From positions 1 through 25,940 of the IMG/VR virus record IMGVR_UViG_3300044675_005167: 25,940 bases of DNA; one strand, 5' to 3'. Below, piece by piece: positions 2,268 to 25,940 of the stretch (the stretch's first letter is position 1; each line of letters starts with the position of its first letter). The notes below the pieces were generated by a model. It saw only the letters and a list, made by a program, of their open reading frames with translations, had not been told where the DNA came from and made no database searches. This stretch comes from a virus. The translations under genes and the position numbers were made by a program.

Positions 2268-2289
2268 ACCACATATACTTCAAATAAAA

Positions 2290-3162: not shown

Positions 3163-3985
3163 AATAATAAATTTCACACCAACAGGGACTCAAACAACAA
3201 GGGAAAATTCTTACGCCCCACTAACTTCTAGTGAAATTATTGACGAAGTTCATGAAGCATATGAATTAGGTATCACTGTAACACATATTCATGCTAGAGA
3301 CCCTATTACATTAGAAAATACATATAAAAAAGAAGTATATCGAGATATTATAGAAGGTATTAGAAAACATTGTCCTGATTTAAGTGTTTGTGTTTCATTA
3401 ACAGGTAGACAATACCCTGAATTTGAGAAGAGGTCTGAGGTTTTAGAACTATATCCTGATATGGGTTCATTAACCATGTCATCACTTAATTTTCCAAAAT
3501 CAGCATCGGTAAATGAACCTGAAATGATTATAAAATTGATTGAAAAAATGAATGAATATGGTGTAATACCTGAAATAGAATGTTTTGATTCGGGTATGTT
3601 AAATTATACGAATTATTTAATAAAAAAAGGGGTTTTACCACCACCACATTATATTAATGTAATTTTTGGTAATATCTACAATGCTCAATTAGATTTACCA
3701 ACAATATCTTCCATAACTAATATCATACCCGTTAATTCCAAAGTTTGTTTTGGTGGGATTGGAAAGGAACAGTTAAATTCAAATATGATGGGTTTAATGT
3801 TTGTTGATGGTATTAGAATTGGGTTAGAAGATAATCTATATTTCAAAGATAAAGTAAAAACAACTAATATTGATTTATTGAAAAGAATACATAGAATTAT
3901 TAATGAGATAGGTCATAAATATATGACACCAAAAGATTTCCAAAATTTGGGATATGTTAATAGAAAAACTAACAATATTAGGTAA
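3131..3985 (+). CDS. Beta-keto acid cleavage enzyme family (BKACE/Kce-like, DUF849)
   Basis: A 284-residue TIM-barrel enzyme of the family that includes 3-keto-5-aminohexanoate cleavage enzyme. These enzymes react a beta-keto acid with acetyl-CoA, using a divalent metal. Visible signatures are H-I-H-A-R-D (metal His52 and His54), P-E-I-E-C-F-D-S-G-M-L mid-protein, a G-G-I-G segment and a late R-I-G-L-E-D-N-L-Y (E233), close to the position of the metal Glu in Kce. No other in-frame ATG precedes the conserved core, so the 32-nt overlap with the epimerase is real. It is unusual among phage sugar-modification genes and may supply an unusual acyl or amino precursor. Family confident, substrate unknown. 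Confidence 0.85.
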   Translation: MNELNKYSTNKIINFTPTGTQTTRENSYAPLTSSEIIDEVHEAYELGITVTHIHARDPITLENTYKKEVYRDIIEGIRKHCPDLSVCVSLTGRQYPEFEKRSEVLELYPDMGSLTMSSLNFPKSASVNEPEMIIKLIEKMNEYGVIPEIECFDSGMLNYTNYLIKKGVLPPPHYINVIFGNIYNAQLDLPTISSITNIIPVNSKVCFGGIGKEQLNSNMMGLMFVDGIRIGLEDNLYFKDKVKTTNIDLLKRIHRIINEIGHKYMTPKDFQNLGYVNRKTNNIR

Positions 3986-4589
3986 GAGTGATGCAACTAT
4001 CACTATGATTTTGGATAATTTGGAATCCAAAAACATATTTCCTATTATTGAAATAATAAACAATCAAAAACTACCAATAATTAACCGTTTTGAAAATGAA
4101 AAATTTAATATCAAATTGGTTGATGAAATATCAGAAAATAAATCTTTGTTTCTTGGTGTTAATAAACCAAAGAACAAAAAAGTGGTTTTTGAATTATTCA
4201 ATCTATCGTTGGGGTCATTCATTAATATAATTCACAACTCATCACATATTTCTTCCACAACTTTATTAGGTAATGGTGTTTTAATTAACTCATTAAGTTC
4301 AATCTCCGCCCAAACTATAATTGGAAATTTTGTTGGGATAAACAGAAACGTTTCAATTGGACATCATACAATAATTAATGATTTTGTAACAATTAACCCT
4401 GGTGCTAATATTTGTGGATTTGTTGAGATAGGTGAAGAAACCGTTATTGGTGCTGGCACAAATATAATAGATGGAATAAAAATTGGAAAAAACAGTATTA
4501 TTGGTGCCGGTTCTGTTGTTACTAAAAACATTCCAAGTAATGTTGTTGCTTATGGAAACCCTTGTAAAATTATTAGACCTAATGAGTAA
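3954..4589 (+). CDS. NeuD/PglD-like sugar O- or N-acyltransferase (left-handed beta helix)
   Basis: A 211-residue protein with a short N-terminal Rossmann-like half (K-L-T-I-L-G-K-S-D in place of the usual G-x-G-G-H) and a C-terminal half of hexapeptide repeats (I-G-N-F-V-G, I-G-H-H-T-I-I-N-D, I-G-E-E-T-V-I-G-A-G, I-G-K-N-S-I-I-G-A-G-S-V-V) ending A-Y-G-N-P-C-K. This is the arrangement of NeuD/PglD-type acetyltransferases, which trimerise and acylate amino sugars from an acyl-CoA. The start at 3954 is needed for the first beta strand, so it overlaps the BKACE gene by 32 nt. Next to an aminotransferase and a BKACE, acylation of a 4-amino sugar is a reasonable guess. Confidence 0.85.
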   Translation: MLIEKLTILGKSDATITMILDNLESKNIFPIIEIINNQKLPIINRFENEKFNIKLVDEISENKSLFLGVNKPKNKKVVFELFNLSLGSFINIIHNSSHISSTTLLGNGVLINSLSSISAQTIIGNFVGINRNVSIGHHTIINDFVTINPGANICGFVEIGEETVIGAGTNIIDGIKIGKNSIIGAGSVVTKNIPSNVVAYGNPCKIIRPNE

Positions 4590-5154
4590 AATTTTTTGTA
4601 TTGGTTCTAACAAAACAGGAACAACAACTTTGACAAAAATGTTAAGTATTTTAGAATATAATATTTGTCCTGAACATATTATGTTTGAACAAAAATCAAA
4701 ATATTTTGAACAACAATTAAATGGAGAGTATGAAAATCTATTTAAACTTGTTGAGTTATACGATGTATTTGAGGATAGACCTTGGAATCACATCGATTTT
4801 TACAAAATACTTGATGAGAAATACCCAAATTCAAAATTTATTTTAACTATCAGAGATACTGATAATTGGATTGAATCATATAAAAGATGGAATAAATCAA
4901 TATCATTGGATAAGACTTGGTTCTACCCTATTATATCCAATATTTGTTATGGTAATACTGATTTTTTAAATGATGAAAAAACCATGAGAGTAAAATATGA
5001 ACAAAGAAATTATGAAATTATAAAATATTTTGAAAATACAAATAAACTTTTGATTATGGATTTTGAGAAAAATTCGGGATATAATGAGTTATGCGGATTT
5101 TTAAACAAACCATTAATAAAAGAAAAAACACCACATTTAAAAAAAACAAAATGA
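4582..5154 (+). CDS. Sulfotransferase-like protein
   Basis: A 190-residue protein starting at the ATG at 4582; a longer in-frame ATG at 4483 only extends into the previous gene. It opens with F-C-I-G-S-N-K-T-G-T-T-T-L, where K11-T-G-T-T-T fits the 5'-phosphosulfate-binding loop of PAPS-dependent sulfotransferases. F-I-L-T-I-R-D around R91, with S99 downstream, fits the 3'-phosphate-binding region. The length is short for the family but complete in layout. It would transfer sulfate from PAPS to a sugar or similar acceptor. It overlaps the previous stop by 8 nt and the next start as ATGA. Confidence 0.8.
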   Translation: MSKIFCIGSNKTGTTTLTKMLSILEYNICPEHIMFEQKSKYFEQQLNGEYENLFKLVELYDVFEDRPWNHIDFYKILDEKYPNSKFILTIRDTDNWIESYKRWNKSISLDKTWFYPIISNICYGNTDFLNDEKTMRVKYEQRNYEIIKYFENTNKLLIMDFEKNSGYNELCGFLNKPLIKEKTPHLKKTK

Positions 5155-5744
5155 AACATAACCCATACAAAATTGTTAAAATGTTCGAGGAAGAAATCGC
5201 TGATTATACTGGCGCTCCTCATGCAATATCGGTTGATAGTTGTACAAATGCAATTTTTTTATGTTGTAAATATTTTAATGTTAATGAAGTAACAATACCT
5301 AAAAAAACGTATTTATCTGTTCCTCAATCAATAATACACGCCGGTGGTAAAATAAAATTTGAAGACATGGAATGGTCAGGTATTTATCAATTAAAACCTT
5401 ATCCAATTTATGATGCGGCAAAAAGATTAACATCAAATATGTATATTCCAAATACATTTATGTGTCTATCTTTTCACATAAAAAAACATTTAAAAATAGG
5501 TAAAGGTGGGATGATATTAACTGATAATAGTGAAGCTGCGGAATGGTTTAAAAAAGTTAGATATGAAGGTAGAAATGAAGTTAACTATGTAGATGATAAT
5601 ATAAAACTTTTAGGGTGGAATATGTACATGACACCTGTAGAAGCCGCTCAAGGTTTAATGTTATTACAAAATTTACCAAAATACAATCAAGATTTACCTG
5701 AAAATTACATAAATTTAACAACACACGAATTATTTAAAGATTAA
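5151..5744 (+). CDS. Compact DegT/DnrJ/EryC1/StrS-type aminotransferase
   Basis: A 197-residue protein from the ATG at 5151 (overlapping TGA); a longer start at 5091 adds only a Lys-rich shadow of the upstream gene. It keeps the PLP core of sugar aminotransferases: F-E-E-E-I-A-D-Y-T-G near the N terminus, S-C-T-N-A-I, a D-A-A motif (D88) for the pyridine nitrogen and S-F-H-I-K-K-H-L-K-I-G-K-G-G, where K112 aligns with the Schiff-base lysine. Normal members are about 370-400 residues; this one lacks most of the C-terminal domain but ends cleanly just before the next gene, with no leftover homologous sequence. It may be a minimal active enzyme or a PLP-binding remnant. Confidence 0.75.
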   Translation: MKHNPYKIVKMFEEEIADYTGAPHAISVDSCTNAIFLCCKYFNVNEVTIPKKTYLSVPQSIIHAGGKIKFEDMEWSGIYQLKPYPIYDAAKRLTSNMYIPNTFMCLSFHIKKHLKIGKGGMILTDNSEAAEWFKKVRYEGRNEVNYVDDNIKLLGWNMYMTPVEAAQGLMLLQNLPKYNQDLPENYINLTTHELFKD

Positions 5745-5745
5745 T

Positions 5746-6327
5746 ATGTTACACATAATAACACCTTTATATAGATTTGATTTACTTGAAAAAGTATATA
5801 ATTCTATTTTACTTAATGATGACATACGATGGCATATTTCAAAATCAAATAAAAGAGAAGAGTTAAATTTTGATTTTATCAAAAAAGATAAACGAATCAA
5901 AATTTATAATGTGAATTGTGAAGATAATGAAATTTATAAAAAAAGAAATTTTGTTTTTGATTATATCAAAAATGGATATTTTTGTTTTATTGACGATGAC
6001 ACAATATTTCATGAAAATATGTACATGAAATATCTTGAATGTGTTGAGAACAATTTTATTGGGATGTTAATAGGTGAACAATTAAATTACTGCGGAAAAT
6101 TAAGATTAATAGCAAATAAACCTGTTTTTAATAAAATTGATACTGGAAACGTTTTATCACACTATTCATGTCTTAAAGAACTTAGATGGCCTTCAACACA
6201 TATCGAAGGAAAAAATCAAAAGGACTTTTTATTTTGGGAATCCGTATATAATTTTTACAATAAAAAATGTGGTATATGGAATCAACCAATTTCGTACTAC
6301 AATAAACTAAATAATCAAAAAAAATGA
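5746..6327 (+). CDS. Glycosyltransferase-like protein (GT-A type)
   Basis: A 193-residue protein beginning L-H-I-I-T-P-L-Y-R, the first strand of a GT2-like fold. It has Y-F-C-F-I-D-D-D-T-I-F with D83-D85 as the DxD site, then a conserved W-P-S-T-H-I-E-G. It is shorter than common family members but has the donor-binding half intact. It starts 1 nt after the aminotransferase stop and its own stop overlaps the PhoH start by 4 nt, so the glycan cassette reads directly into the PhoH group. Substrate unknown. Confidence 0.65.
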   Translation: MLHIITPLYRFDLLEKVYNSILLNDDIRWHISKSNKREELNFDFIKKDKRIKIYNVNCEDNEIYKKRNFVFDYIKNGYFCFIDDDTIFHENMYMKYLECVENNFIGMLIGEQLNYCGKLRLIANKPVFNKIDTGNVLSHYSCLKELRWPSTHIEGKNQKDFLFWESVYNFYNKKCGIWNQPISYYNKLNNQKK

Positions 6328-7049
6328 CACAAAGAAAAAAAACAAATCCTGTTAATCAAGAACACGATAAAAAACTTACAAGAAAGGAAATTATTACAAG
6401 TATAGTTAAGAAAAAAACAAAAGAAAAATTTTTAACCGAAAGTCAAAGAACTTATTACAATCTTCTAACAACAAATCAAATTACAATTTGCTCAGGTCCC
6501 GCAGGTGTTGGTAAAAGTTACATTGCAATGAAAGCGGCAATTGACTTACTTTCAGACCCTACAACACCATATGAAAAAATAATTATAGTTAGACCCGCAG
6601 TTGAAGCTGAAGAAAAGTTGGGTTCATTACCCGGAAACGTAGAGGAAAAATTAGACCCATACATATTTCCATCATATTATTTAATGAATAAAATAATTGG
6701 AAAAGAAGCTAGAGAAAAACTTAAAGAAATTGATGTTATTGAAGTTTTTGCTTTAGCCTATATGAGAGGCATGAATATAGACAATTCCTTATTAATTTTT
6801 GAAGAGGCTCAAAATTCCACACCAAATCAAATGAAATTACTATTGACAAGAATAGGTTTTAATAGTAAATTTTTCATATCGGGTGATTTAGAACAATTTG
6901 ACAGACATAAAGACAAAACTCAAACAGGTTTGTGGGATGCTATAAGTAAATTTAAAGACTTAAATGATGTCGGAGTTTTTGAATTTAATCCAAATGATGT
7001 TGTTAGAAATCCTTTAATTAGTAAAATATTAAAAAGATACGAAGAATGA
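6324..7049 (+). CDS. phoH: PhoH-like P-loop ATPase
   Basis: A 241-residue protein. Walker A is G-P-A-G-V-G-K-S at residues 58-65, followed by I-I-V-R-P-A-V and G-S-L-P-G-N-V-E-E-K-L-D-P-Y. Walker B is L-L-I-F-E-E-A-Q-N with E160/E161, then I-S-G-D-L-E-Q-F-D. This is the full PhoH signature, related to the N-terminal half of superfamily 1 helicases. PhoH is common in marine phages; its job during infection is unresolved (RNA metabolism or phosphate stress have been proposed). The first 40 residues are a Lys-rich extension. It overlaps both neighbours by 4 nt. Confidence 0.93.
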   Translation: MTQRKKTNPVNQEHDKKLTRKEIITSIVKKKTKEKFLTESQRTYYNLLTTNQITICSGPAGVGKSYIAMKAAIDLLSDPTTPYEKIIIVRPAVEAEEKLGSLPGNVEEKLDPYIFPSYYLMNKIIGKEAREKLKEIDVIEVFALAYMRGMNIDNSLLIFEEAQNSTPNQMKLLLTRIGFNSKFFISGDLEQFDRHKDKTQTGLWDAISKFKDLNDVGVFEFNPNDVVRNPLISKILKRYEE

Positions 7050-7699
7050 GAATAGGTTTTGAAATAAATGGTGTGTTAAGAAATACCATTGAAAAAATAA
7101 CCCAAGTATATCAAAAAAATAATATTGATGGTAACCAAAATGAATTTAGTTATCAAACATATAAATTAGATATGTCAGGTAATACGGAAGAAGAAACTCA
7201 ATCAGAATCTTTTAAATATGAAATGAATTTACCAGTGACTTCTTTGAATCTCACAGAACATTTCAAATTTCAAAACGAAGAAGAATACTATTCATTTTTA
7301 TATGAAGAACACCCGATGGAAATTTTTGGACACTCACCTTCCACTGAAATGACAACATTCAATGATTTAAATAACATTTATTTTAATTTAAGGAATGAAC
7401 ATGATTTAATGATAGTTTCGGATGAAATTGGTAAATCAAAACCCGCTTCATTATTTTTCCTTTCCAAGTTTGGTTGTGAGATAGAAAAAATAAAATTTTA
7501 TAGTAATTCTACAATAAATTCTATGTGGAATGAAATTGATGTTTTACTTACTTCAAATCCTATCTTATTATTAAATCATCCGTCAGATAAAATCTCAATA
7601 AAATTTGAAACTGACTACAATAAAAATATAAACACCCCTCATTCAATTAAAACATTAAAAGAATTTGAGGACAAACTTAAAGAATTAAAAATATGTTAA
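7046..7699 (+). CDS. HAD-like protein with altered catalytic motif
   Basis: A 217-residue protein that starts M-R-I-G-F-E-I-N-G-V-L, the position where HAD phosphatases carry the hhhDxDG motif. The nucleophile Asp is Glu6 and the acid/base Asp is Asn8. Further on, M-I-V-S-D-E-I-G-K-S-K-P fits HAD motifs II/III, and I-D-V-L-L-T-S-N-P fits the position of motif IV without its Asp pair. The fold is therefore inferred to be HAD-like but probably not a normal phosphatase; it could bind a nucleotide or act as a structural or regulatory protein. It sits between PhoH and a small unknown with overlapping ends on both sides. Confidence 0.5.
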   Translation: MRIGFEINGVLRNTIEKITQVYQKNNIDGNQNEFSYQTYKLDMSGNTEEETQSESFKYEMNLPVTSLNLTEHFKFQNEEEYYSFLYEEHPMEIFGHSPSTEMTTFNDLNNIYFNLRNEHDLMIVSDEIGKSKPASLFFLSKFGCEIEKIKFYSNSTINSMWNEIDVLLTSNPILLLNHPSDKISIKFETDYNKNINTPHSIKTLKEFEDKLKELKIC

Positions 7700-7950
7700 A
7701 AATTTTAGGTGAAAACTACTATTTAGATTTGGATGCAATTGATAAATACGTAATAATACCAAATCCATCAGGAATTACAGATTATAATATCAGTGTCGTA
7801 AAATACGAAATGGTTAAAATAATGACCGAAATTTTGGTTACAGAAAATGAAGAAGTTGATGAAAAACTTGGAGAAAAATCTGATTTAACCATCCCATTTA
7901 AATTAGCTTTTAATACACTTTTAAATAAAAAATTACTAAACAAATATTAA
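7693..7950 (+). CDS. Hypothetical protein, 85 aa
   Basis: A small acidic protein with no recognised motif. The N-terminal half is predicted mostly beta (L-K-I-L-G-E-N-Y-Y-L-D-L). The C-terminal half is helical, with an E-N-E-E-V-D-E linker and a hydrophobic F-K-L-A-F-N-T-L-L-N-K-K-L-L end. It overlaps the previous gene by 7 nt and is followed after 1 nt by a glycosyltransferase gene, so it is translated in the same operon. No function can be assigned. Confidence 0.6.
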   Translation: MLKILGENYYLDLDAIDKYVIIPNPSGITDYNISVVKYEMVKIMTEILVTENEEVDEKLGEKSDLTIPFKLAFNTLLNKKLLNKY

Positions 7951-7951
7951 T

Positions 7952-9013
7952 ATGAATTCAGAAAATTTATCTAAATTAGAATTATCCATCGAAAATATGA
8001 AGAACAAAAAAACAAGAATTTATTTTTTTGTTCAAGACAGTAGAGGAAATGCTAAAGCATCTGTTGCCTACATTTATAATATGGCAATGTCATTAAAACA
8101 AAATGGTTTTAATTCCATAATTTTACACGAAAAACCTGATTATGTTGGAGTTTCCGAATGGTTAGGTGAGGAATTTATGAATGAATTACCTCATAAAACA
8201 ATTGAAGGAGAAAAATTAGAAGTTTCACCTGAAGACTTTATAGTTGTTCCCGAATTATTTGGATTCGTTATGCCGCAAATAACTAAATTACCTTGTGGTA
8301 AAATTGTTTTGTGTCAAGCTTATGACCATGTATTGGAAACATTACAACCAGGTCAGTCTTGGAGTCAATTTGGATTTTTAAAATGTATCACAACATCGGA
8401 GTTTCAAAAAGATTATTTAGAAAATGTTATGAGGAATACCACTTTTGATATTTTAGAACCGTTCATTTCCGATGATTTTGTTGAGAGTAATTTACCCGCA
8501 AAACCAATTATTGCGGTTCATTCAAGAGAACAAAGAGACACAATTAATTTAATTAAGACATTTTATTTAAAATTTCCACAATATAGATGGGTTACTTTTA
8601 GAGACATGAGAGGTCTTACTCAAAAGGAGTTCGCAACCACATTAAAAGACGCGTTTTTATCTGTTTGGATTGACGAAACAAGTGGTTATGGTACATATCC
8701 TTTAGAATCCATAAAATCAGGTGTTCCTGTAATGGGTTTAGTACCAAATTTACAACCTCATTGGATGAATACTGAAAATGGTGTTTGGGTTAATAATAAA
8801 ACTCAAATGTCTGATTTTATTGCGGATTTTTTACAAAATTGGTTGGAAGATAATATTAATGAGAACTTACTAACCGAAATGAATAAAACAAAAGAATCTC
8901 TATCAACTAAAGAAAGATTTTATAGTGAGACTGTAAATCTTTTTGAAAAATATATAAACATTAGGTTGAATTCTTTCGAAGAACAACTTGAAAAATTAAA
9001 AGAAACAGTATAA
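7952..9013 (+). CDS. Glycosyltransferase, GT-B fold (GT4-like)
   Basis: A 353-residue protein with an N-terminal half starting R-I-Y-F-F-V-Q-D-S-R-G-N-A and a C-terminal half containing I-I-A-V-H-S-R-E-Q-R and S-G-Y-G-T-Y-P-L-E-S-I-K-S-G-V-P-V. The last segment matches the donor-binding E-x7-E motif of GT4 enzymes, except that the first Glu is Ser244 (the second is E252). The changed Glu may mean a different donor or mechanism. The gene starts 1 nt after the upstream stop and ends 1 nt before the next glycosyltransferase, so two glycosyltransferases precede the late sigma factor in one tight operon. Confidence 0.7.
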   Translation: MNSENLSKLELSIENMKNKKTRIYFFVQDSRGNAKASVAYIYNMAMSLKQNGFNSIILHEKPDYVGVSEWLGEEFMNELPHKTIEGEKLEVSPEDFIVVPELFGFVMPQITKLPCGKIVLCQAYDHVLETLQPGQSWSQFGFLKCITTSEFQKDYLENVMRNTTFDILEPFISDDFVESNLPAKPIIAVHSREQRDTINLIKTFYLKFPQYRWVTFRDMRGLTQKEFATTLKDAFLSVWIDETSGYGTYPLESIKSGVPVMGLVPNLQPHWMNTENGVWVNNKTQMSDFIADFLQNWLEDNINENLLTEMNKTKESLSTKERFYSETVNLFEKYINIRLNSFEEQLEKLKETV

Positions 9014-9014
9014 C

Positions 9015-9818
9015 ATGGAAAAATTTGATGTATCGGTAATCCTACCAATTAAAACATTTCACGCAATAAATTTTGAAGACTATTTTGCAAAATGTATTGC
9101 GTCACTAAAAACACAGAAAGTGTCAATAAATGAATTAGTTATTGTACACACAGATGAAACATCTTTAACAGAATATTTAGAATCTTATGATTTTGAAGAT
9201 TTAAATGTAGTAAAGGTTAAATGGACAAAAGAACCAAATTTTGCTGAACAAGTTAATTATGGTGTTAAAACTGCAAAATCAAAATGGGTTTCTTTATTGG
9301 AGTTTGATGACGAATATTCAATGATTTGGTTTAAAAATGTTAAAAAATACTGTGAGTCTTATTCTGATGTTGATATATTTTTACCAATTGTTGTTGATAT
9401 CGATGAAAAGGGTACCTTTGCGGGATTCACTAATGAAGCGACATTTGCTCTTAATATCTCAAGTGAGATGGGTGTTTTAAGTAATGAAACATTACAAAAT
9501 TTCCAGAACTTCCAAATTTCAGGTATGGTTATTAAAAAACAAACATATTTAGATTATGGGTCTATCAAACCTTCATTCAAATTAACATTTGGGTATGAGT
9601 TCTTCTTGAGAATGACACAAAATTCATCAAAAATAATGACCATTCCAAGAATCGGATACAAACATACAAATTTAAGAACTGGGTCTATATTTTGGAATTA
9701 CAAAAATGGAGATAGTGTTTTAACTGAAGATGAGGTAAGATTTTGGATTGATTCAGCTAAAAAAGAGAGCTTTTTTATTAATGATAGAGCTATAAAATAT
9801 GAAACACAAGAAAATTAA
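9015..9818 (+). CDS. Glycosyltransferase family 2-like
   Basis: A 267-residue protein beginning D-V-S-V-I-L-P-I-K-T, the standard first strand of GT2. It has A-E-Q-V-N-Y-G-V-K-T-A-K-S-K-W-V-S-L-L and then E96-F-D-D-E, which fits the DxD site. A central loop and a late L-R-T-G-S-I-F-W segment complete the domain. The acceptor is unknown; phage capsid, tail or DNA hydroxymethyl groups are all possible. Its stop codon overlaps the ATG of the sigma factor by one base. Confidence 0.75.
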   Translation: MEKFDVSVILPIKTFHAINFEDYFAKCIASLKTQKVSINELVIVHTDETSLTEYLESYDFEDLNVVKVKWTKEPNFAEQVNYGVKTAKSKWVSLLEFDDEYSMIWFKNVKKYCESYSDVDIFLPIVVDIDEKGTFAGFTNEATFALNISSEMGVLSNETLQNFQNFQISGMVIKKQTYLDYGSIKPSFKLTFGYEFFLRMTQNSSKIMTIPRIGYKHTNLRTGSIFWNYKNGDSVLTEDEVRFWIDSAKKESFFINDRAIKYETQEN

Positions 9819-17835: not shown

Positions 17836-17868
17836 ACAAGATATTTATAAATAAAAAAATATGGCAAA
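17818..17868 (+). repeat. 51-bp direct repeat, copy 2
   Basis: Second copy of the unit at 16743-16793 with one mismatch. It again joins the end of a Cys-rich gene to a late promoter and to the ATG-GCA-AA start of the next, unrelated gene, so the near-identity spans both coding ends and the non-coding gap. Confidence 0.95.
17842..17853 (+). promoter_or_regulatory. Late promoter box TATTTATAAATA
   Basis: Same 12-bp palindrome and same distance to the start codon (7 nt from TATAAATA to the ATG at 17861) as at 16767. It would drive the two tagged small genes at 17861 and 18178, up to the terminator at 18647. Confidence 0.75.
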
Positions 17869-18178
17869 AGTAGTTAAATTAACCGAATCAGACCTTAATA
17901 GAATTATCGAGAAAGTTTTATTAGAGGCGGAAGAAGATAAACCATTCGAAAAAGGTAAATTTGGTGTTAGAGCATCAAGGTCAAGAGCTGATTATACACC
18001 AACTCCAAAAGAATCTGAAATTATTGATTCTCTTTTTGGTAAGTATAGTGATGATATACCACCGATTGTAATGAGATACCTGAGAAAAATTGGTAGAAAA
18101 ACATTAACTAAACGTTTAATAGATTTAAATCTACTTGATTTAGATACTATTATGGACGAATTTGATGTTAAAGAATAA
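17861..18178 (+). CDS. Putative head-internal protein with N-terminal targeting tag, 105 aa
   Basis: A 105-residue protein. Residues 6-22 read KLTESDLNRIIEKVLLE, an amphipathic helix followed by A23. L20-L21-E22/A23 fits the T4 prohead protease rule (Leu or Ile, any, Glu, then a small residue). The next gene begins with a close variant of the tag. The rest is basic then helical (G-V-R-A-S-R-S-R-A, R-K-I-G-R-K-T-L-T-K-R-L) and has no known domain. Inferred to be packaged in the head and trimmed to about 83 residues. Its stop overlaps the next ATG by one base (TAATG). Confidence 0.6.
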   Translation: MAKVVKLTESDLNRIIEKVLLEAEEDKPFEKGKFGVRASRSRADYTPTPKESEIIDSLFGKYSDDIPPIVMRYLRKIGRKTLTKRLIDLNLLDLDTIMDEFDVKE

Positions 18179-18639
18179 TGAAAAAAGTAATTAAGTTAAA
18201 AGAATCTGATTTACAGAATATTATCATAAAAGTTCTTAATGAACAAGAAAGTGATAGATATATGTTCTTCTCTAATTTAGAACAAATGAGAAGACAGTGT
18301 GATTTATTACTTGATTTAAATCATGATGAGATAGAATCAATACTAGATGATGGACACGATTGGGCTCAAGACCATATCGCCGAAGCTAAAAATAATTTAG
18401 ACCAAGTGTTTGATTTTCTTATGAATACAACAAAACGTTATCATACTATGGATGATGAAGTTGTAAGTGAAGGAAGAAAAAAAACAGGAACAAAATTATG
18501 TGCCAGAGGTAAATCAGCAGCAAAAGCAAAATTTAAAGTGTACCCTTCAGCATATGCTAATGGTTACGCAGTTCAGGTTTGTAAAGGAAGAATGCCAGGT
18601 TTAGATGGTAAAAAAAGGTGTTCTTCACCATATTGTTAA
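18178..18639 (+). CDS. Putative head-internal protein with tag and basic Cys domain, 153 aa
   Basis: A 153-residue protein. The N-terminal tag KLKESDLQNIIIKVLNE (residues 6-22) is homologous to that of the preceding protein, with a candidate cleavage L-N-E/Q that is less typical at P1'. Residues 30-90 are helical and acidic. The C-terminal 50 residues form a basic domain with K-F-K-V-Y-P-S-A-Y-A-N-G-Y and Cys at 108, 135, 148 and 153. From memory, similar segments recur in large phages and algal viruses without known function. A strong terminator follows 8 nt after the stop. Confidence 0.65.
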   Translation: MKKVIKLKESDLQNIIIKVLNEQESDRYMFFSNLEQMRRQCDLLLDLNHDEIESILDDGHDWAQDHIAEAKNNLDQVFDFLMNTTKRYHTMDDEVVSEGRKKTGTKLCARGKSAAKAKFKVYPSAYANGYAVQVCKGRMPGLDGKKRCSSPYC

Positions 18640-18646
18640 TAACTTT

Positions 18647-18678
18647 TTAATCCCTCCCTCTTGAGGGATTAATTTTTT
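18647..18678 (+). terminator. Rho-independent terminator of the plus-strand virion operon
   Basis: A perfect 10-bp stem, TTAATCCCTC (18647-18656) with GAGGGATTAA (18663-18672), a 6-nt loop and a run of six T (18673-18678). It directly follows the gene ending at 18639 and ends the long plus-strand transcript. The left flank is T-rich rather than A-rich, so it acts on the plus strand only. Confidence 0.93.
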
Positions 18679-18708
18679 ATACCTAAACTTCCAAAAAATT
18701 AATATTTT

Positions 18709-19140
18709 ATGACAAGACCTGAAGTTGTCGGGATGATATCCAAAGTATTGTTTAAGGTATATGTGTACTTAAAAGAAAGATTTGACCCCAAATATCCAAT
18801 AACAGATGAAGAAAAATATTTTACAGAAATTTGTTTTACTCTAATAGAAAATCCAAAAAGTAATTTAACAATAGGTCCTAAATCATTAAAAAGGTTTATA
18901 AAGAATGACGAAAAGGACATTTTTGTTGTAATAGATAATAGAAAAGTTACATTAATAAATCACGTATATTGTTATAATTTAGTTTTTGAGGATGATGAAC
19001 AATACTTCAATATGGTTAAAAAGTTTGATGAGGTTTTAGAAGCTAAAAAACAATCTGTCGAAGATGAGATGACAAATAATGTTAAAAATTCTTTAAAAAT
19101 AATATTGTCGAAAGTTAAAAATTCTCCCTCAAAACCTTAA
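18709..19140 (+). CDS. Hypothetical protein, 143 aa
   Basis: A 143-residue protein of mixed charge with no recognised family. The N terminus V-V-G-M-I-S-K-V-L-F-K-V-Y-V-Y-L-K-E-R is a hydrophobic amphipathic helix. The middle contains a beta hairpin (I-F-V-V-I-D-N-R-K-V-T-L-I), and the C-terminal 45 residues are a charged helix. It follows the terminator after a 30-nt gap with no clear promoter, and its last 26 nt overlap the end of the convergent gene at 19115. Coding is supported by length and composition. Confidence 0.55.
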   Translation: MTRPEVVGMISKVLFKVYVYLKERFDPKYPITDEEKYFTEICFTLIENPKSNLTIGPKSLKRFIKNDEKDIFVVIDNRKVTLINHVYCYNLVFEDDEQYFNMVKKFDEVLEAKKQSVEDEMTNNVKNSLKIILSKVKNSPSKP

Positions 19141-20089
19141 TAATAAGTCTTTCCAACGATTCATTTTGTTTCTTTTTTGGTTTGTATGAAACCATTTTTG
19201 GTTTGTTACCCGTTCCTGTTTTAGAATGTGATTTTTCCGCATTCCTTTTCTGAGCACAAGCCGCTTTCTTTTGACTATCACTCATTTTACCAGCAACCCC
19301 TGCCGCACGACATTTAGGATATGATTTGTCAGTTGCTTCAGGTCTTCCACATGGAGGATGTTTTCCATCAACTTTTTTACATATATTGACCCAAGGACCT
19401 TTTGGTTGTTTACTTCCTTTAGGTTTCTTTTTTGTACCAAACCATACCGCCAAATCTTCATTAATTGTATGTGTATCATGAGTATCAATATTATAAGTCC
19501 CATCTTTTCCTTTTTCCCACATACCAACAGTTCGTTTAATATTATTTTTTATTTTCTTCTTCACCTTTATTTTATTAATTGGTATTTTAGAAAACTTTGT
19601 AAAAGGTCCCAATTCAGAATCTTTCCATTTTTTCATACCTAACTCCATAGGCCCACTATATTCACCCGCAAAATCACTAATACCTGATTCAGAAATAACA
19701 TCATCATTTTTTATTTCAACCCATTCATTAAATTTTATAAATGGTTTTGATGTATCTTTTTGTCTTAATTTTTTAGAATGTTCGGGATATTGATTCAATA
19801 TATCTCCATCATCATCACTTTGTGTTGGATGATTTTTCTTATGTTTTGCAATTTTTATAGCATTTTTTTCCATTTTACTAATTTCTTTTTTTGACTTATT
19901 CATTTTACCATCATAAGAATCATATTCTAATTCAGCATTATCATATTTGGATACTGAATCCGTAAATGGTGCAAGTTGTGATTTATCGAATAATCTTACA
20001 CCTGACATTAAAGGTGCAATATAACTACCTCTACCCCCAACATCACCTGTAACCTCGGTTAAAACTTTTTTTATGGTATCTCTTAACAT
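19115..20089 (-). CDS. Putative head-internal protein with basic Cys domain and terminal tags, 324 aa
   Basis: Start taken at the ATG at 20089; a GTG at 20104 would add five residues. The N terminus M-L-R-D-T-I-K-K-V-L-T-E/V (residues 1-13) matches the second half of the KLTESDL-type tag, with L10-T-E12 as a candidate prohead protease site. The C terminus ends L-I-I-K-V-L-R-E-N-F, a similar helix. Residues 230-300 form a Lys-rich domain with Cys at 237, 247, 260 and 278 (P-W-V-N-I-C, Y-P-K-C-R, M-S-D-S-Q-K-K-A-A-C-A-Q-K-R). From memory it resembles a DUF seen in large phages and giant viruses. DNA or RNA binding is plausible from charge. Confidence 0.65.
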   Translation of the reverse strand: MLRDTIKKVLTEVTGDVGGRGSYIAPLMSGVRLFDKSQLAPFTDSVSKYDNAELEYDSYDGKMNKSKKEISKMEKNAIKIAKHKKNHPTQSDDDGDILNQYPEHSKKLRQKDTSKPFIKFNEWVEIKNDDVISESGISDFAGEYSGPMELGMKKWKDSELGPFTKFSKIPINKIKVKKKIKNNIKRTVGMWEKGKDGTYNIDTHDTHTINEDLAVWFGTKKKPKGSKQPKGPWVNICKKVDGKHPPCGRPEATDKSYPKCRAAGVAGKMSDSQKKAACAQKRNAEKSHSKTGTGNKPKMVSYKPKKKQNESLERLIIKVLRENF

Positions 20090-20111
20090 TGTAGAAAAAA
20101 TCACTTATTAT

Positions 20112-20119
20112 TATAAATA
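20112..20119. promoter_or_regulatory. Late promoter-like box in divergent gap
   Basis: TATAAATA on the plus strand (TATTTATA on the minus strand) in the gap between the minus gene starting at 20089 and the plus gene starting at 20135. On the plus strand it is 15 nt before the ATG; on the minus strand 22 nt before the ATG. It could serve either or both genes. Confidence 0.55.
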
Positions 20120-20134
20120 TCTAAAAGTTAATAA

Positions 20135-20356
20135 ATGGAAGAAAAGGAAGTTTTTGCCAAATTATTTAATTCAATTACGGTTGAATCCAAAGAGCATATT
20201 GATGCAATTATTTTATCAATGAGATATGAAGACGCCAAATTTTTACTTATTCAGGCGGTAAAACATGCTTATAATCAAGGGGTTTATACATTAGGAGAAA
20301 GTGAAATTATCTCTAAATCCATAAGGGTTTTAAGCGAAACCAAAGAAAAAGAATAA
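20135..20356 (+). CDS. Hypothetical helical protein, 73 aa
   Basis: A 73-residue, all-helical acidic protein with no recognised domain (M-E-E-K-E-V-F-A-K-L-F-N-S and R-Y-E-D-A-K-F-L-L-I-Q-A-V-K-H-A-Y). It lies between a late promoter-like box and the host-type promoter of the lipoprotein gene. It starts with ATG preceded by an A/T-rich leader lacking a Shine-Dalgarno sequence. Function unknown. Confidence 0.55.
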   Translation: MEEKEVFAKLFNSITVESKEHIDAIILSMRYEDAKFLLIQAVKHAYNQGVYTLGESEIISKSIRVLSETKEKE

Positions 20357-20371
20357 AAAAGATTATTTTTT

Positions 20372-20402
20372 TTTGGTAATTCAAAAAGTTTTTGTATCTT
20401 TG
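20372..20402 (+). promoter_or_regulatory. Bacteroidetes housekeeping-type promoter
   Basis: TTTG at 20372-20375, a 19-nt spacer and TATCTTTG at 20395-20402 match the Bacteroidetes sigma-70-type consensus (TTTG, 19-21 nt, TAnnTTTG). The lipoprotein ATG follows 4 nt later at 20407, implying a very short or absent leader. It differs in type from the TATTTATA boxes nearby and suggests expression by unmodified host polymerase. Confidence 0.75.
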
Positions 20403-20406
20403 TGGT

Positions 20407-20781
20407 ATGAAAAATATAATCATAACCCTTTCTGTTGTACTTTTACTAGGTTCTTGTGCAACAACCAACCAAAAACATTATTATCAGAAACCTAATGGTG
20501 AATGGATGTCCAAAAGGGAACTCGATAGATTCTGTAAACAAGCTCTTCGTAACGCCATGAGGAGTGTATCTAAAGAAGATATGAAGATTCTAATGGGTGT
20601 ACCCATGAATATCGATACAAACTCATTTGGAACAAGTATTTTTGTTGACACGAATACTTTGAATCCTAATTATGTTGTTGATACCCCATTTATTGGTGAT
20701 GCAACTGATACAATCATACATGATATAATTTGGATTGAAGATACAATCAATGGAATACCTTGCAGATATAGTAAAGATTAA
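20407..20781 (+). CDS. Phage-encoded lipoprotein, 124 aa
   Basis: Start taken at the ATG at 20407; an upstream TTG at 20392 lies inside the promoter. Residues 1-17 are a lipoprotein signal peptide: K2, a hydrophobic stretch I-I-I-T-L-S-V-V-L-L-L and lipobox L-G-S-C with C17 lipidated. The mature part begins A-T-T-N-Q-K-H-Y-Y and is otherwise acidic with many Asp/Thr; no domain is recognised. It should reach the outer membrane or periplasmic face of the host. Its host-type promoter suggests early or constitutive expression, so superinfection exclusion or receptor masking is a fair hypothesis. Its stop overlaps the convergent gene by 4 nt. Confidence 0.75.
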   Translation: MKNIIITLSVVLLLGSCATTNQKHYYQKPNGEWMSKRELDRFCKQALRNAMRSVSKEDMKILMGVPMNIDTNSFGTSIFVDTNTLNPNYVVDTPFIGDATDTIIHDIIWIEDTINGIPCRYSKD

Positions 20782-21956
20782 TTGGCGGGTTTTAAATAAT
20801 CCCCTTTTTGGTAGGAACCAATACCTGTAAAATTATAATTATATAATAACTCATAAACACCGTTTGTGAATTTTTTCGCCTTATTATTTTTAACTAACAC
20901 ATCTAATGTCTCTCGACTACTTTTATTTGGTGTTACTTTCTGTACATCAAATATCTTTACCTTTTTAACATCACCCTGAGATATTTTACTTTTATCCCCC
21001 ATTTTAAGAGTATTACCACAAGCATCCAAAACTAAGATAGTTTTCTCAGTTGCATCATCTCTTTCACCTAATGATGGAGCACAAGACCAAAATAAAACAT
21101 TTTTACCTTTAGTTATTCTAACTTCAGGTGTCGAAGAGTGACATTTAGTCTCCAAACATTGTAAACTAATAATTAATTGATTATTTTGAGTATTTGACAT
21201 AATTTGTTTTGCCAAACTATCGTCAATCACTTTTTTGAAATATCTACTACCAGAATCTACTTTATTATTTAAATCCGCAACACCTATAATAACACCATTG
21301 ACTTTAACATTAAACTTCGCCTCATCACATTGATGACCACCTCTACATGGAAAACTTTCGTTCTTTTGCTTATCATAAATAACTTCAACAGTTAAACCAA
21401 CAACACACTCTTCAGGTGATTTAAGAGTCAATTCAACATTAACAAATCTTTCCTTGATATATCTTGGGTCATTTGGATTATCCCCCTTTATCTTCTTCGT
21501 CATCTTCTTATATGGAGTTTCCCCAATTTTAATCTCAGGTTCTTGAAACTCAGGTTTTGAAGATATAACACTTGTCTTATAATAGTCATTCAAGTAAGTA
21601 GATAATATGTTTTTCATGGTTTCAGCTCTTTTTTTAGCTAAATAACCAACCTCAACAGTCTTAGGTGGAGACACCTCATTATCAACATTTGTTACCTGTG
21701 ATTCCCCCGCAATTATTTTTACACTTACAATTGAACCTTTATTACTCAATAAAAAAGGTTTTACCTTCTCATCCATTTGTTTGGATAATTCACTACTACC
21801 CTGTTGATTTAAATTTTTCCACTTCCCATTATCAAAATAAGACTGACTACTTATGTTTATAACATTACCAGATTCAGCCTCATTAATGAGATTATACATG
21901 GATAAGATATGTTTCTTATCCTCTTCCGTGACCAAAAATCTACTTTTACATGACAT
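20778..21956 (-). CDS. Putative head-internal protein with OmpA-like domain, 392 aa
   Basis: The N terminus is a helix, V-T-E-E-D-K-K-H-I-L-S-M-Y-N, followed by L23-I-N-E26/A27. The residues L-I-N-E-A are identical to the predicted maturation site of the major capsid protein in this window. Residues about 35-125 resemble an OmpA/MotB-like domain (Y-F-D-N-G-K-W, I-I-A-G-E-S-Q-V-T-N, V-G-Y-L-A-K-K-R-A-E-T-M-K-N-I-L). The remaining 260 residues are beta-rich with Cys pairs (C-R-G-G-H-Q-C, C-L-E-T-K-C) and no known family. It may be packaged in the head and cleaved; peptidoglycan contact via the OmpA-like part is a hypothesis. Confidence 0.6.
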   Translation of the reverse strand: MSCKSRFLVTEEDKKHILSMYNLINEAESGNVINISSQSYFDNGKWKNLNQQGSSELSKQMDEKVKPFLLSNKGSIVSVKIIAGESQVTNVDNEVSPPKTVEVGYLAKKRAETMKNILSTYLNDYYKTSVISSKPEFQEPEIKIGETPYKKMTKKIKGDNPNDPRYIKERFVNVELTLKSPEECVVGLTVEVIYDKQKNESFPCRGGHQCDEAKFNVKVNGVIIGVADLNNKVDSGSRYFKKVIDDSLAKQIMSNTQNNQLIISLQCLETKCHSSTPEVRITKGKNVLFWSCAPSLGERDDATEKTILVLDACGNTLKMGDKSKISQGDVKKVKIFDVQKVTPNKSSRETLDVLVKNNKAKKFTNGVYELLYNYNFTGIGSYQKGDYLKPAN

Positions 21957-21994: not shown

Positions 21995-22378
21995 ATGACC
22001 GATAGAACTAAATTAGAAAATGTATTAAACATGTTAATTAAGAAAAAATTTCCGTTTGTACAAGATGTTGAAGTGGTTAGAATTATACAACATTTTAACG
22101 ATTTACGTGGAGATATTAATTTTTATGTAACCAAAGACTTTATTAAAGAACATGTCAGATATGACTGTTATGACCAAATGGAAAAAGATGATGATATATT
22201 CTTCTCTTTATTCTCCTTTAACTGGTGTTCCGATGAAAAAATAGATGAATCCTATATATACAATTTGGTTGAAACAACATATAAAATGTTAGGACTTGCT
22301 TGGTCACATAGTATTAATAACACAAATCTATCCCTTTCAGTTGTACAATTACCCGAATCTAACGAGAACCCTTCCTAA
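21995..22378 (+). CDS. Hypothetical protein, 127 aa
   Basis: A 127-residue protein with no recognised family: an N-terminal helix (K-L-E-N-V-L-N-M-L-I-K-K-K), a strand-rich middle (G-D-I-N-F-Y-V-T-K-D-F-I) and an acidic, aromatic-rich centre (D-D-D-I-F-F-S-L-F-S-F-N-W-C). No signal or membrane segment. It has its own TATTTATA box, and its last 20 nt overlap the convergent HNH gene. Confidence 0.6.
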   Translation: MTDRTKLENVLNMLIKKKFPFVQDVEVVRIIQHFNDLRGDINFYVTKDFIKEHVRYDCYDQMEKDDDIFFSLFSFNWCSDEKIDESYIYNLVETTYKMLGLAWSHSINNTNLSLSVVQLPESNENPS

Positions 22379-23033
22379 TATTCTCCTCACCCCATAATGG
22401 TTGTAAGTTCTCTAATGACCAACATTCCATGAATTCACTATCACCTATCTCCTGAATATTGTACGAAGCAATTGCCTTAATGTGGTCAACATGCCATTCA
22501 CCATAATTATCCCACGTCATACCGTCTTTAAATTGGTTTTCCAAGTGAAATATTAACTCGTCAGGAGTGTATTGTAGGATGTCAAAGTAATGACCATTCT
22601 TTTGAATATTGTTCTCCTTTAATACCTGATAAATTGCAGTCCTGAAATTGTTGATTAACTTATAAAGGGGGTCTTTTGATTTACGAGTTCTTTCGTAGTT
22701 TCTTTTTACTTTACGGATTTTATCTATATTTTTTTCACGGTATTCTTTGAGGTATTGTTTACGATGCTCTTTATTTTGTTCATACCAAGTTTTTACATAC
22801 TCGTTAAGTTTTTCTTTATTTTTTTCTCGATATTTTTTATCGGCAACTTTCTTACCCCCAATAAATCTTCTTCCCGAAGGACCAAATACTATACCATTCT
22901 CTTTTAAAATTCTAATTACGACTTGTTTATTTATCCCCATTTGTTCTGATATACTTTGTGAACCTAAAAGCCCAACATTGTACATTTGTAGTATTTTTTC
23001 TAATTCATTTTTTGTGGGTATATATTTTTTCAT
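22359..23033 (-). CDS. HNH homing endonuclease with N-terminal HTH
   Basis: A 224-residue protein. Residues 8-48 look like a helix-turn-helix (S-I-S-E-Q-M-G-I-N-K-Q-V-V-I-R-I-L). A Lys/Arg/Glu-rich helical linker (about 60-120) follows. The HNH nuclease is at residues 180-222: W-H-V-D-H-I (H181, D183, H184), C-W-S-L-E-N-L-Q-P-L-W (N209) and E-E-N-I-R-K-G (N218). This is a free-standing phage homing endonuclease that would nick or cut DNA in phages lacking it. It sits 105 nt downstream of the major capsid gene, separated by a terminator, with its own promoter-like box. The 3' end overlaps the gene ending at 22378. Confidence 0.88.
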   Translation of the reverse strand: MKKYIPTKNELEKILQMYNVGLLGSQSISEQMGINKQVVIRILKENGIVFGPSGRRFIGGKKVADKKYREKNKEKLNEYVKTWYEQNKEHRKQYLKEYREKNIDKIRKVKRNYERTRKSKDPLYKLINNFRTAIYQVLKENNIQKNGHYFDILQYTPDELIFHLENQFKDGMTWDNYGEWHVDHIKAIASYNIQEIGDSEFMECWSLENLQPLWGEENIRKGSR

Positions 23034-23138: not shown

Positions 23139-24968
23139 TTATCTCAATTCTCTTAAATCGAATGTACGAACACCATCAACGGTAATTCTTGCATAGAAGC
23201 GGTTATTTACCATCTTCTTCGCGTAACGAGTCATTATACCTTTAATCGGTGTAAAGTTGAACGGATTGTACATTGTTGGAGTTAATTGTAATGGTACATA
23301 CGGAGCGTAGATGTATCCTGTATCAAGTAACGATGTTCCTTTATGTCCGATTAACACTTGGTTAGGTGGGAAATAAGGGTCACGGTATACTTGGTAACGA
23401 CCAGCTAAAGTACCAACTCTTTCAATACCCATGTTGTATTGGTCTTGCTCAGGTGAAGCGTTAGATACGTGGAAGTATTCTAAATCATCAAAGATAGCAG
23501 AAACCTCACTTGATACAACAATCCAGTTAGCTCCACCACGAAGTGTTGACTTGTGGATTTGTGCTGACAATTGGTTGATTGCAGTAATCAATGTTTGATT
23601 CCAATCTTTCTGAGTGTAAGAAGTTGTTGCAGAAATTCTTCTCCATCCGTTGTAATCCCAACGTAAGTTCCAAGCTGCACCTTTACGTAAATCACGAAGG
23701 ATTTCACGGTCGATTTCAGCCGCAACTTGTTCAGACAATAAAGCCGTTAATTCAGCCTCAGCGTCGATGTTGTGGAATGCCGCAACGTCTTGAGCTAATT
23801 CAGGAGACCATTGTGCTCTTAATTTTCTTTCAGTTACAGTAACAGTTACTGATTCTAAGTCGAAAGAAACCTCACCAATTTTGTCTTCGAATTCTAATTC
23901 TTCATAACGTCTGAAAGCAGCGTAGAATGAAGTAGTTGTGTTAGCAGTGATAGTTGAACCTGTGTAACCATCTAAAGATGTTGCGTTACAATCAGCACAT
24001 ACTGGACAAGATAAATCTACTTCTAAGTAGATACAACCGTTAGCATCACATACATTTTTGAATGAACCACCGTTACCAGTTGACGGCCATGATGTAGTAG
24101 TTGTATTACCGTAACTAACGATACCTTTACCATATTGTTGTGTTACCACACGGAACAATAAAGGACCTGTAGAAATTGTACAAGGGTTAGTTGTAGATGC
24201 AGATAAACCTGAACCTGTGAAGATAATTAAATCAGATAAGAAAGTTTCTGTATCCATTTCATTACCATCAGGACCGATTAATTTTCCTGCTCCTGTATCA
24301 GCAAAACCACACATTTTGATGATGATTTTACGTACGTTAGTTGCAGTAGCGTATTCAGTTGTAGCTGAAGCTAAAGAACCATTTGACCATACTTGAATCT
24401 CAGTACTAGCAGTAATTGCTGACCAACGACCTTTTGAATAGTCAAATAAACCTGGAGGGTCTAAAGCAGCTTCATTTCCTTCGTAGAATAAATCGTAAAG
24501 GTTTTTAGCGTAAGGAGTACCACTTGTGTAACCAGCGTTTGGATTTCCAGGGTAGTTACCAGGAGAACCTACAGGTGCGTAGTGGTCACCACTTGATACA
24601 TCACTCCATTGAGTGTTAGTTCCACCACTGTAACCTTGAATTTTTGGTACGAAGTAGAATAATTTACCGATAGGTAAGTTCATAGCTTGAACTGACACGA
24701 TGTCGTTAGCTAATAATTTAGAGAACACACGTCTAACGATAGGAAATACAACAGTTTCGAATGAACCTGAAGAACCGTCAGAAGTTGCTTCGTTTATCAA
24801 GTGGCTAGCTTGGTTTTCATATAACTGAGCCACGTTTTCTTTTAGGTGGCCTTTAAGACCTTCAAGGAACCCTAATTTGTCCCATTTGTTGATAGTATCT
24901 TCTTTGATAACTTTAAGGTGTTTTAAACCGATGTTACCAACAAGACCTGATTCTAATAATGCTCCCAT
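23139..24968 (-). CDS. 23: Major capsid protein, T4 gp23-like
   Basis: A 609-residue protein with the T4 gp23 layout. An N-terminal propeptide (I-N-K-W-D-K-L-G-F-L-E-G-L at about 26-38) ends at a predicted prohead protease site L57-I-N-E60/A61, close to the T4 cut after residue 65. It is followed by F-P-I-V-R-R-V-F-S-K-L-L-A-N-D-I-V-S-V-Q-like packing helices, and the C-terminal half carries the HK97-type core. It is longer than T4 gp23 (521 aa), with an insertion region holding five Cys within 21 residues (C307, C312, C321, C324, C327). The DNA is clearly richer in GC than its neighbours and uses CGT for Arg, as expected for a very highly expressed gene. A terminator follows. Confidence 0.93.
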   Translation of the reverse strand: MGALLESGLVGNIGLKHLKVIKEDTINKWDKLGFLEGLKGHLKENVAQLYENQASHLINEATSDGSSGSFETVVFPIVRRVFSKLLANDIVSVQAMNLPIGKLFYFVPKIQGYSGGTNTQWSDVSSGDHYAPVGSPGNYPGNPNAGYTSGTPYAKNLYDLFYEGNEAALDPPGLFDYSKGRWSAITASTEIQVWSNGSLASATTEYATATNVRKIIIKMCGFADTGAGKLIGPDGNEMDTETFLSDLIIFTGSGLSASTTNPCTISTGPLLFRVVTQQYGKGIVSYGNTTTTSWPSTGNGGSFKNVCDANGCIYLEVDLSCPVCADCNATSLDGYTGSTITANTTTSFYAAFRRYEELEFEDKIGEVSFDLESVTVTVTERKLRAQWSPELAQDVAAFHNIDAEAELTALLSEQVAAEIDREILRDLRKGAAWNLRWDYNGWRRISATTSYTQKDWNQTLITAINQLSAQIHKSTLRGGANWIVVSSEVSAIFDDLEYFHVSNASPEQDQYNMGIERVGTLAGRYQVYRDPYFPPNQVLIGHKGTSLLDTGYIYAPYVPLQLTPTMYNPFNFTPIKGIMTRYAKKMVNNRFYARITVDGVRTFDLRELR

Positions 24969-24998: not shown

Positions 24999-25940
24999 TT
25001 ATTTTAATTTTGACATCAAATCTTTCATTCTCAAGAACTGAGGATTTTCATAAGTTTTTGACTCAATCAAGTTAGCTGCTGAACCTGAAATAGGTGATTT
25101 TTCAATTCTTTTTTCAACTGATTCAGTAACTGTTTGTACTTGTGTGCTTGTTGATGAAAGTTCATCTTTGATTGTCTTGTACAAATTCTTAGATTCTTTA
25201 ATATTTTCAACCGAATCAAATCTTCTAAGAATATTGATTTTTTCTTGTTTTGATGTTGAGTGTTCTGTAAACAAACGTGTAGCGTATGCTAAGTTTGAAT
25301 TAAATACCGCAACTTCATTTAATTTATTTCTGAATACATTTAAAGCTTTTCTATATTCTTCATTTTTTTCTCTAAGAATTTGAACTTCTTTTTGGGAAGT
25401 ACTTTCTTCGATAGCGGTGTTAAATTGAGAATGTGCTCTTGGTTTCGGTAAACCACCTTTTCTAAATTTAGACCCTGAACCTAAGGTTCTTGAAGCTTCT
25501 TTAGTTTCCACTTTTTTAGTACCAGCTTTTACCACTGTATTTTTTCCTAATTTTTTACCAAGGTTTTCTCCTTCTTTGTATTCAAATTTTGCTTTACCTG
25601 TACCAACTGATTTAGGTCCTTCTTTCATTTTTTCTTTGAACCCACCAGCCATATTAGGTTTTTTAGCGAATTTGAATTTCGAAGCACTTCCGAATCCTTT
25701 ACCTTTAGGTTTAGAAGTTATTTTAGACTCTTCAAGATGTGAATCTTCATCCATATCTTCTTCGTCATCTTCTTCACCTTCAAACATTTCGTCTTCGTCT
25801 TCGTCCTCATCATCAAATGAGATTTCGTAAACTACAGACTCGTCTTCTTCGTCTTCTTCAGAACTTTGTTCACCGAATACTTTATTAACGATATCATCAA
25901 CATCATCAGATTCATCCATTTCCATTTCTTCATCATCAGA
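24999..25940 (-). CDS. 22: Prohead scaffold/core protein, gp22-like (5'-truncated)
   Basis: The frame stays open to the window edge (S-D-D-E-E before the Met at 25925), so the true start is outside. The visible 313 residues begin with a very acidic stretch (Asp/Glu runs), then a Lys/Gly-rich basic segment, then coiled-coil helices (about L-R-E-K-N-E-E-Y-R-K-A-L-N and N-I-L-R-R-F-D-S-V-E-N) and end L-M-S-K-L-K. Position immediately upstream of the capsid gene and the charge pattern fit T4 gp22, the scaffold that is degraded by the prohead protease. Candidate cut sites are H-L-E-E/S, A-I-E-E/S and N-L-I-E/S. The gap to the capsid start is 30 nt. Confidence 0.8.
   Translation of the reverse strand, partial: SDDEEMEMDESDDVDDIVNKVFGEQSSEEDEEDESVVYEISFDDEDEDEDEMFEGEEDDEEDMDEDSHLEESKITSKPKGKGFGSASKFKFAKKPNMAGGFKEKMKEGPKSVGTGKAKFEYKEGENLGKKLGKNTVVKAGTKKVETKEASRTLGSGSKFRKGGLPKPRAHSQFNTAIEESTSQKEVQILREKNEEYRKALNVFRNKLNEVAVFNSNLAYATRLFTEHSTSKQEKINILRRFDSVENIKESKNLYKTIKDELSSTSTQVQTVTESVEKRIEKSPISGSAANLIESKTYENPQFLRMKDLMSKLK

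Follow-up and report, generated by a model that had tools for sequence, protein, structure and literature searches.

Why should neighboring genes of one phage encode proteins that begin alike and share nothing else? This question is raised by IMGVR_UViG_3300044675_005167, a fragment of a T4-like phage that was analyzed over the whole 25,940-base virus record (here called the window). A first-pass annotation of the window had proposed that the open reading frames (ORFs) at 17861, 18178, 19115, and 20778 encode head-internal proteins that carry one cleavable N-terminal targeting helix, here called the tag. The four ORFs, their N-terminal sequences, and the half-tag and C-terminal helix of the 19115 product were all found where that annotation had placed them. 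Sequence comparison with related phages indicates that the tagged proteins are probably precursors of head cargo, which would be cut by a gp21-type S77 protease after (I/L)-x-E, so that the remainders of the proteins (the bodies) would be released in the capsid.

A portable N-terminal tag on unrelated bodies

The tag was analyzed in the window and in a sample of relatives comprising related phages, 80 close gp23 relatives, and long contigs of up to 296 kb. The type-1 tag has the 22-residue consensus MKKIIRLTESDLxRIVKRVIxE, and full copies of it begin the 17861 and 18178 products. A 17-column profile, run on 2,489 ORFs from the window and its relatives, gave 75 matches of at least 14 bits, versus none in shuffled proteins; nearly all of the matches start about 5 residues past a Met. 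Alignment of 67 tagged proteins revealed that conservation is confined to the first 22 residues, with M1, E9, and E22 each present in at least 90% of the sequences. Most type-1 tags are 20 to 23 residues long. Single-linkage clustering of 127 tagged genes with tags of either of the two main types (type 2 is described below) resulted in 73 unrelated body families. In newly added contigs, the tag was N-terminal in 152 of 155 cases and was found on 111 body families. These results strongly support the proposed extendable set of unrelated bodies, which also shows fast turnover. Because many unrelated bodies stand behind few tag classes, the tag is regarded as a portable module. A spread of the tag onto replication enzymes was not seen, and the recognizable Pfam domains of the tagged bodies are mostly cell wall related.

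A shared N terminus could also be a relic of gene duplication, left by one old family whose bodies have diverged past recognition. Tagged genes do often lie in tandem clusters (e.g., at 110 to 117 kb of contig G001). However, plainly distinct domains occur among the bodies (OmpA-like, peptidoglycan-binding, M23, LysM, and NlpC/P60), homologous bodies occur with either full tags or half-tags, and module starts in a polyprotein family described below coincide with the Glu boundary. An origin by duplication alone is thus very improbable.

The suggestion of a single tag common to all four window genes was only partly borne out. It applies to the 17861 and 18178 products; the 19115 product carries the distal half of the tag only, and the 20778 product has a tag of another class. 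The 20135 gene also gave a type-1 profile match (LGESEIISKSIRVL, near the C terminus), which is far from the protein start. This gene has a conserved family of its own, and the match was rejected as a false positive.

The tag ends at the motif of the capsid protein propeptide site

Position-specific comparison of type-1 tags, with one body per family, revealed Glu at the predicted P1 position in 44 of 46 bodies and I, L, or V at P3 in all 46. The information content is 4.0 bits at P1, 1.2 bits at P1', and about 0.7 bits beyond. Since the seed pattern had required Glu, the selection was repeated with the first half of the tag only, and Glu was again present at the predicted cut in 47 of 49 proteins, with I, L, or V at P3 in 48 of 49.

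The (I/L)-x-E ending of the tag is the same motif as that of the propeptide site of the major capsid protein gp23. The predicted gp23 propeptide ends in I-N-E followed by Ala in 80 of 80 relatives. The gp23 proteins of 18 tag-bearing giant contigs also have I-N-E (followed by Ser in one of them), and the exception is a second gp23 copy, which has L-V-T-E↓T (an arrow marks a predicted cut). By analogy with T4, gp23 would be cut at the I-N-E site. S77 protease genes were detected in 17 of 18 long relatives. Of 28 tag-bearing contigs, 18 have both S77 and gp23 genes, and the rest have neither. Taken together, the ending in (L/I)xE, as at the gp23 site, and the co-occurrence of an S77 prohead protease are strong support for a tag that looks cleavable.

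The largest tag-bearing contig in which gp23 and S77 genes are missing has 274 kb. This contig was considered as a counterexample and set aside, as its sequence is colinear with that of G001 and breaks off at either flank of the head module, which is the part that it lacks. A search for portal genes gave no match, including in its controls, and is uninformative. Contig G026 (268,739 bases) contains two sets of S77 and gp23 genes, at 31 to 35 kb and at 233 to 238 kb, with the gp23 sites INE↓A and VTE↓T; it is either a chimeric assembly or a two-capsid phage.

The tag might instead be an uncleaved helix that sorts proteins to the membrane, a replication compartment, or the tail lumen and keeps its terminal Glu for another reason. 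In favor of this reading, the type-1 consensus is strongly amphipathic and basic, and some tagged bodies resemble endolysins or tape measure proteins by profile. This explanation is improbable, as conservation ends exactly after (I/L)xE, the motif of the gp23 site, and full type-1 tags, half-tags, and type-2 tags all keep this ending and little else.

Type-2 and further tag classes

The 20778 product belongs to a second class with the pattern M..(L/I)xE..K.RIL.LH...(Y)LxE and a consensus like MKKLYFLNEEEKNRILNLHESATKxQYLxE, which is again followed by the predicted cut. The type-2 pattern gave 38 matches versus none in shuffled sequences. Further members were found by profile, and the class is widespread in the relatives. 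Type-2 tags are about 19 to 36 residues long. An (L/I)xE motif lies within 24 residues past the type-2 core in 49 of 55 tags versus 9% of background windows. An earlier count of 56 of 58 was biased by the inclusion of an LHE that overlaps the core and was replaced by this value; the family MNAYFFKMNQAEKNDILDQHK does not have the (L/I)xE ending and was for this reason dropped from the type-2 set. An (L/I)xE motif is also found at the start of the tag in 66 of 68 type-1 and 46 of 55 type-2 tags, which is partly due to selection by pattern.

A third class, EEI.RIKEMMG..(L)NE, is tentatively proposed from a few proteins. In two huge phages of other lineages, L146 (LR756508, 484 kb) and L317 (LR756502), divergent tags (MRLSERKLRRIVKEE... 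and MENIKSFDSFNE...) suggest further tag classes.

Modular polyproteins and basic terminal modules

The 19115 product had been described as a tagged protein with a similar helix at its C terminus. Both elements are present, but a simple tagged protein is not what this product proved to be; it is a polyprotein of several modules. It contains only four (L/I)xE sites (after E12, E134, E211, and E322), all of which lie at module boundaries. In homologs, module A is often preceded by E↓ATSD, which is identical to the gp23 site at P1' to P4', and proteins of relatives may begin directly at module B or C, right after such a Glu. At the boundary of module C, Glu is present in 29 of 29 homologs, with I, L, V, M, or F at P3. 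In seven relatives (L033, L041, L042, L044, L047, L056, and L062), the C-terminal helix amounts to a full tag, and the open frame continues from it into a further body.

In the 18178 protein, E22 is invariant in 16 aligned homologs, and the body consists of a helical region (residues about 26 to 88), a second boundary of the form (V/M/I)xE↓G at E98↓G99, and a basic Cys/Lys-rich module. An AlphaFold model of this protein was too poor for use (mean pLDDT, 56). The basic module is encoded as a stand-alone gene in small marine phages. Look-alikes of the terminal basic modules of both the 18178 and 19115 products are separate small genes in such phages, the pairing with module C being made by eye, and in Prochlorococcus phage P-SCSP2 both small genes lie between the scaffold and capsid genes. 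Prochlorococcus and Pelagibacter phages (L315, L316, and L318) encode the KLCARGKAAAKRKFKVYPSAYANAYA module as a tiny protein by itself; in two of these three, another small Cys/Lys-rich gene, similar to module C, is found nearby.

These positions bear on the possibility that the tagged proteins are structural proteins associated with the head core or scaffold, which would be trimmed and kept in the capsid or lost as fragments, instead of being injected effectors. In a small cyanophage, the 18178 basic module is encoded between the genes for scaffold and capsid, a placement suggestive of a role connected with DNA or the head. A tagged family (E↓APIDY) is encoded upstream of the protease and gp23 genes in relatives, with only a few genes in between. 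In T4, the core proteins gp22, gp67, and gp68 are cut by gp21 (PMC5694885). However, unlike structural head proteins, most tagged bodies show poor conservation and vary from relative to relative, and domains that bind or cut the cell wall recur among them. A purely structural role is therefore a serious but rather unlikely alternative to released cargo.

Turnover, predicted functions, and expression of the tagged bodies

Up to 18 scored tagged genes are present per genome. In G001, homologs in three relatives were found for 4 of 18 tagged bodies versus 219 of 348 untagged genes (P = 8e-4). Few tagged bodies have recognizable domains; those found are PG_binding_1, LysM, Peptidase_M23, NLPC_P60, and, weakly, SLT. 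A search of the Protein Data Bank (PDB) with Foldseek using the AlphaFold model of the 20778 product gave a best E value of 3.5e-4, and the top 24 matches all belong to the OmpA/MotB-like fold class; a 20778 homolog also has a weak match to Pfam OmpA. Wall-related domains fit proteins that would meet the cell wall at entry, and endolysin-like enzymes could also act late.

The element TATTTAT was found within 60 bases upstream of 74 of 127 tagged genes and 50 of 53 gp21 genes, compared to about 3% of random 60-mers. It is common to tagged, gp21, sheath, and tube genes, and most replication genes do not have it. An exact degenerate tag pattern matched virus contigs among the matches listed and gave no match in 84,980 genomes of bacteria and archaea. 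A tblastn search of cultured phages with a 23-residue consensus tag gave no match, which shows little with a query so short.

Proposed mechanism and comparison with known systems

The data are consistent with a mechanism in which the amphipathic helix, N-terminal or, in polyproteins, internal, would act as an address by which the protein docks on the core of the prohead. On head maturation, the S77 prohead protease would cut after (I/L)-x-E and free the body inside the capsid, and some bodies would probably exit together with the DNA and might act on the cell wall or in host takeover. Many unrelated bodies would be served by two well-supported classes of tag, with a tentative third, and a protein acquiring a tag together with late expression would become cargo.

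Several observations weigh against this mechanism. In Flavobacterium phage immuto, the nearest cultured relative examined, gp21 and gp23 are present and neither tag class is recognizable; the tags are therefore a feature of a lineage and not a requirement of the protease. A nearby (L/I)xE is missing in 6 of 55 type-2 tags, some C-terminal helices of the 19115 family do not have this ending, and at the second boundary of the 18178 family, P3 is mostly V or M instead of I or L. The replication gene dnaB carries the TATTTAT element in four of four cases, which makes the argument for late expression only moderate. For these phages, neither virion proteomics nor a protease assay was found.

The tag system is best explained as a greatly expanded functional analogue of the T4 capsid targeting sequence (CTS), which is carried by IPI, IPII, IPIII, and Alt and cut by gp21. 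Both systems place a short propeptide (here predicted) at the N terminus of unrelated bodies, and both have a motif ending in Glu, an S77 protease, and a gp23 with the same motif. The likeness is one of motif, protease, and layout. In T4, the proteins of this kind number four and their propeptides have about 7 to 19 residues, whereas the type-1 tag has about 22 residues and the tags fall into two or more unrelated classes. Unlike in T4, most tags have a second (L/I)xE at their start, genomes have up to 18 tagged genes, and polyproteins contain internal tags. Encapsulin cargo-loading peptides likewise address a protein to a capsid-like shell and are not known to be removed by a protease.

In T4 IPIII, packaging requires no more than the first ten residues, and processing no more than residues 8 and 10; Alt is cut at both ends and thus has a C-terminal propeptide, too (PMC9026906). 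IPI and IPIII help the phage on particular hosts, and IPI inhibits a restriction system (PMC9391042). The giant myoviruses SPN3US and phiKZ, with propeptides on inner-body or ejection proteins, also have many head proteins that are cut after Glu by a prohead protease, and the paralogs gp53 and gp54 have an identical N terminus, reminiscent of the shared tag (PMC5694885). These phages differ in an A-x-E or S-x-E motif, propeptides of mostly more than 100 residues, and few bodies (PMC10052503), in contrast to the (I/L)xE motif and short tags found here. No paper describing the tags was found in a literature search that covered few subscription journals.

If the cargo assignment is correct, the rule of an N-terminal tag ending in (I/L)xE would allow proteins without annotation to be predicted, by the hundreds, as virion cargo of giant environmental phages, a class that in T4 includes the antirestriction protein IPI and the host takeover enzyme Alt. 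Since exact new N termini are predicted, ordinary virion proteomics would be a direct test. The joining of a 22-residue tag to a new body suggests a way in which large phages could quickly gain packaged functions. In a wider picture, for which the chances appear evenly balanced, a T4-like clade of about 230 to 300 kb, probably of Bacteroidota, would use a multiclass portable head address code with continual capture of bodies and cleavable polyproteins, and each virion would deliver, as infection begins, a different set of perhaps 10 to 20 proteins, which would in part be directed at the cell wall.

Gene map of the window and neighboring genes

The features of the window are given in Table 1. 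The S77 protease gene is expected just past the window edge, beyond the gp22-like gene. The 19115 gene starts with an ATG at 20089, and a GTG-initiated frame extends to 20104.

Table 1. Tags, bodies, and head genes located in the window (arrows, predicted cuts)
Feature	Position	Strand	Evidence or remark
Promoter-like TATTTATA element	17842..17849	+	Directly upstream of 17861 gene
Type-1 tag of 17861 gene, residues 1-22, MAKVVKLTESDLNRIIEKVLLE	17861..17926	+	Profile, 41.8 bits; predicted cut E22↓A23
Body of 105-aa tagged protein, no known family	17927..18178	+	Closest homolog body, G005:89372, 64% identical, tagged too
Type-1 tag of 18178 gene, residues 1-22, MKKVIKLKESDLQNIIIKVLNE	18178..18243	+	Profile, 37.3 bits; predicted cut E22↓Q23
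Body of 18178 protein	18244..18639	+	Helical part, second boundary, basic Cys/Lys-rich module
Modular polyprotein, 324 aa	19115..20089	-	Four (L/I)xE sites at module boundaries
C-terminal tag-like helix of 19115 protein, NESLERLIIKVLRENF	19118..19165	-	
Module C of 19115 protein (DLAVWFG...)	19166..19456	-	Basic, Cys-rich, weakly DUF5872-like
Module B of 19115 protein (SGISDFAGEY...)	19457..19687	-	Preceded by ISE; by eye like a short repeat of A
Module A of 19115 protein (VTGDVGGRGSY...)	19688..20053	-	Sequence comparison with homologs
Half-tag of 19115 protein, MLRDTIKKVLTE	20054..20089	-	Predicted cut E12↓V13
Body of 20778 protein	20778..21878	-	Residues ~31-180, OmpA/MotB-like peptidoglycan-binding fold (predicted model)
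Type-2 tag of 20778 gene, residues 1-26, MSCKSRFLVTEEDKKHILSMYNLINE	21879..21956	-	Predicted cut E26↓A27
gp23 major capsid protein	23139..24968	-	PF07068, E = 4.8e-74; predicted propeptide cut HLINE60↓ATSD
gp22-like scaffold/core protein, acidic, reaching window edge	24999..25940	-	Position; C terminus SKTYENPQFLRMKDLM common to gp23-adjoining gene in relatives

A small putative lipoprotein gene (MKNIIITLSVVLLLGSC) at 20392 to 20781 is convergent with the OmpA-like 20778 gene, and similar small lipoprotein genes adjoin 20778 homologs in L019, L023, and L026. The untagged gene at 20135 to 20356 encodes a conserved 73-aa protein and is located beside candidate cargo genes in many relatives. Upstream in the window are also structural genes and a sugar/glycan gene cluster at 63 to 6327 that includes, by eye, glycosyltransferase-, epimerase-, and aminotransferase-like genes. 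In a giant relative, L099 (G003), a subtilase gene with SprB repeats and a Por_Secre_tail domain (type IX secretion sorting domain) is positioned just after gp23 (5628 to 9257), and two further genes for SprB repeat proteins adjoin the capsid gene; these genes point to Bacteroidota hosts and to phage use of type IX secretion. In the window, gp23 is adjoined by a gene at 22359 to 23033 that looks by eye like an HNH endonuclease, with no Pfam match and with homologs in many relatives, and that is possibly a homing endonuclease.

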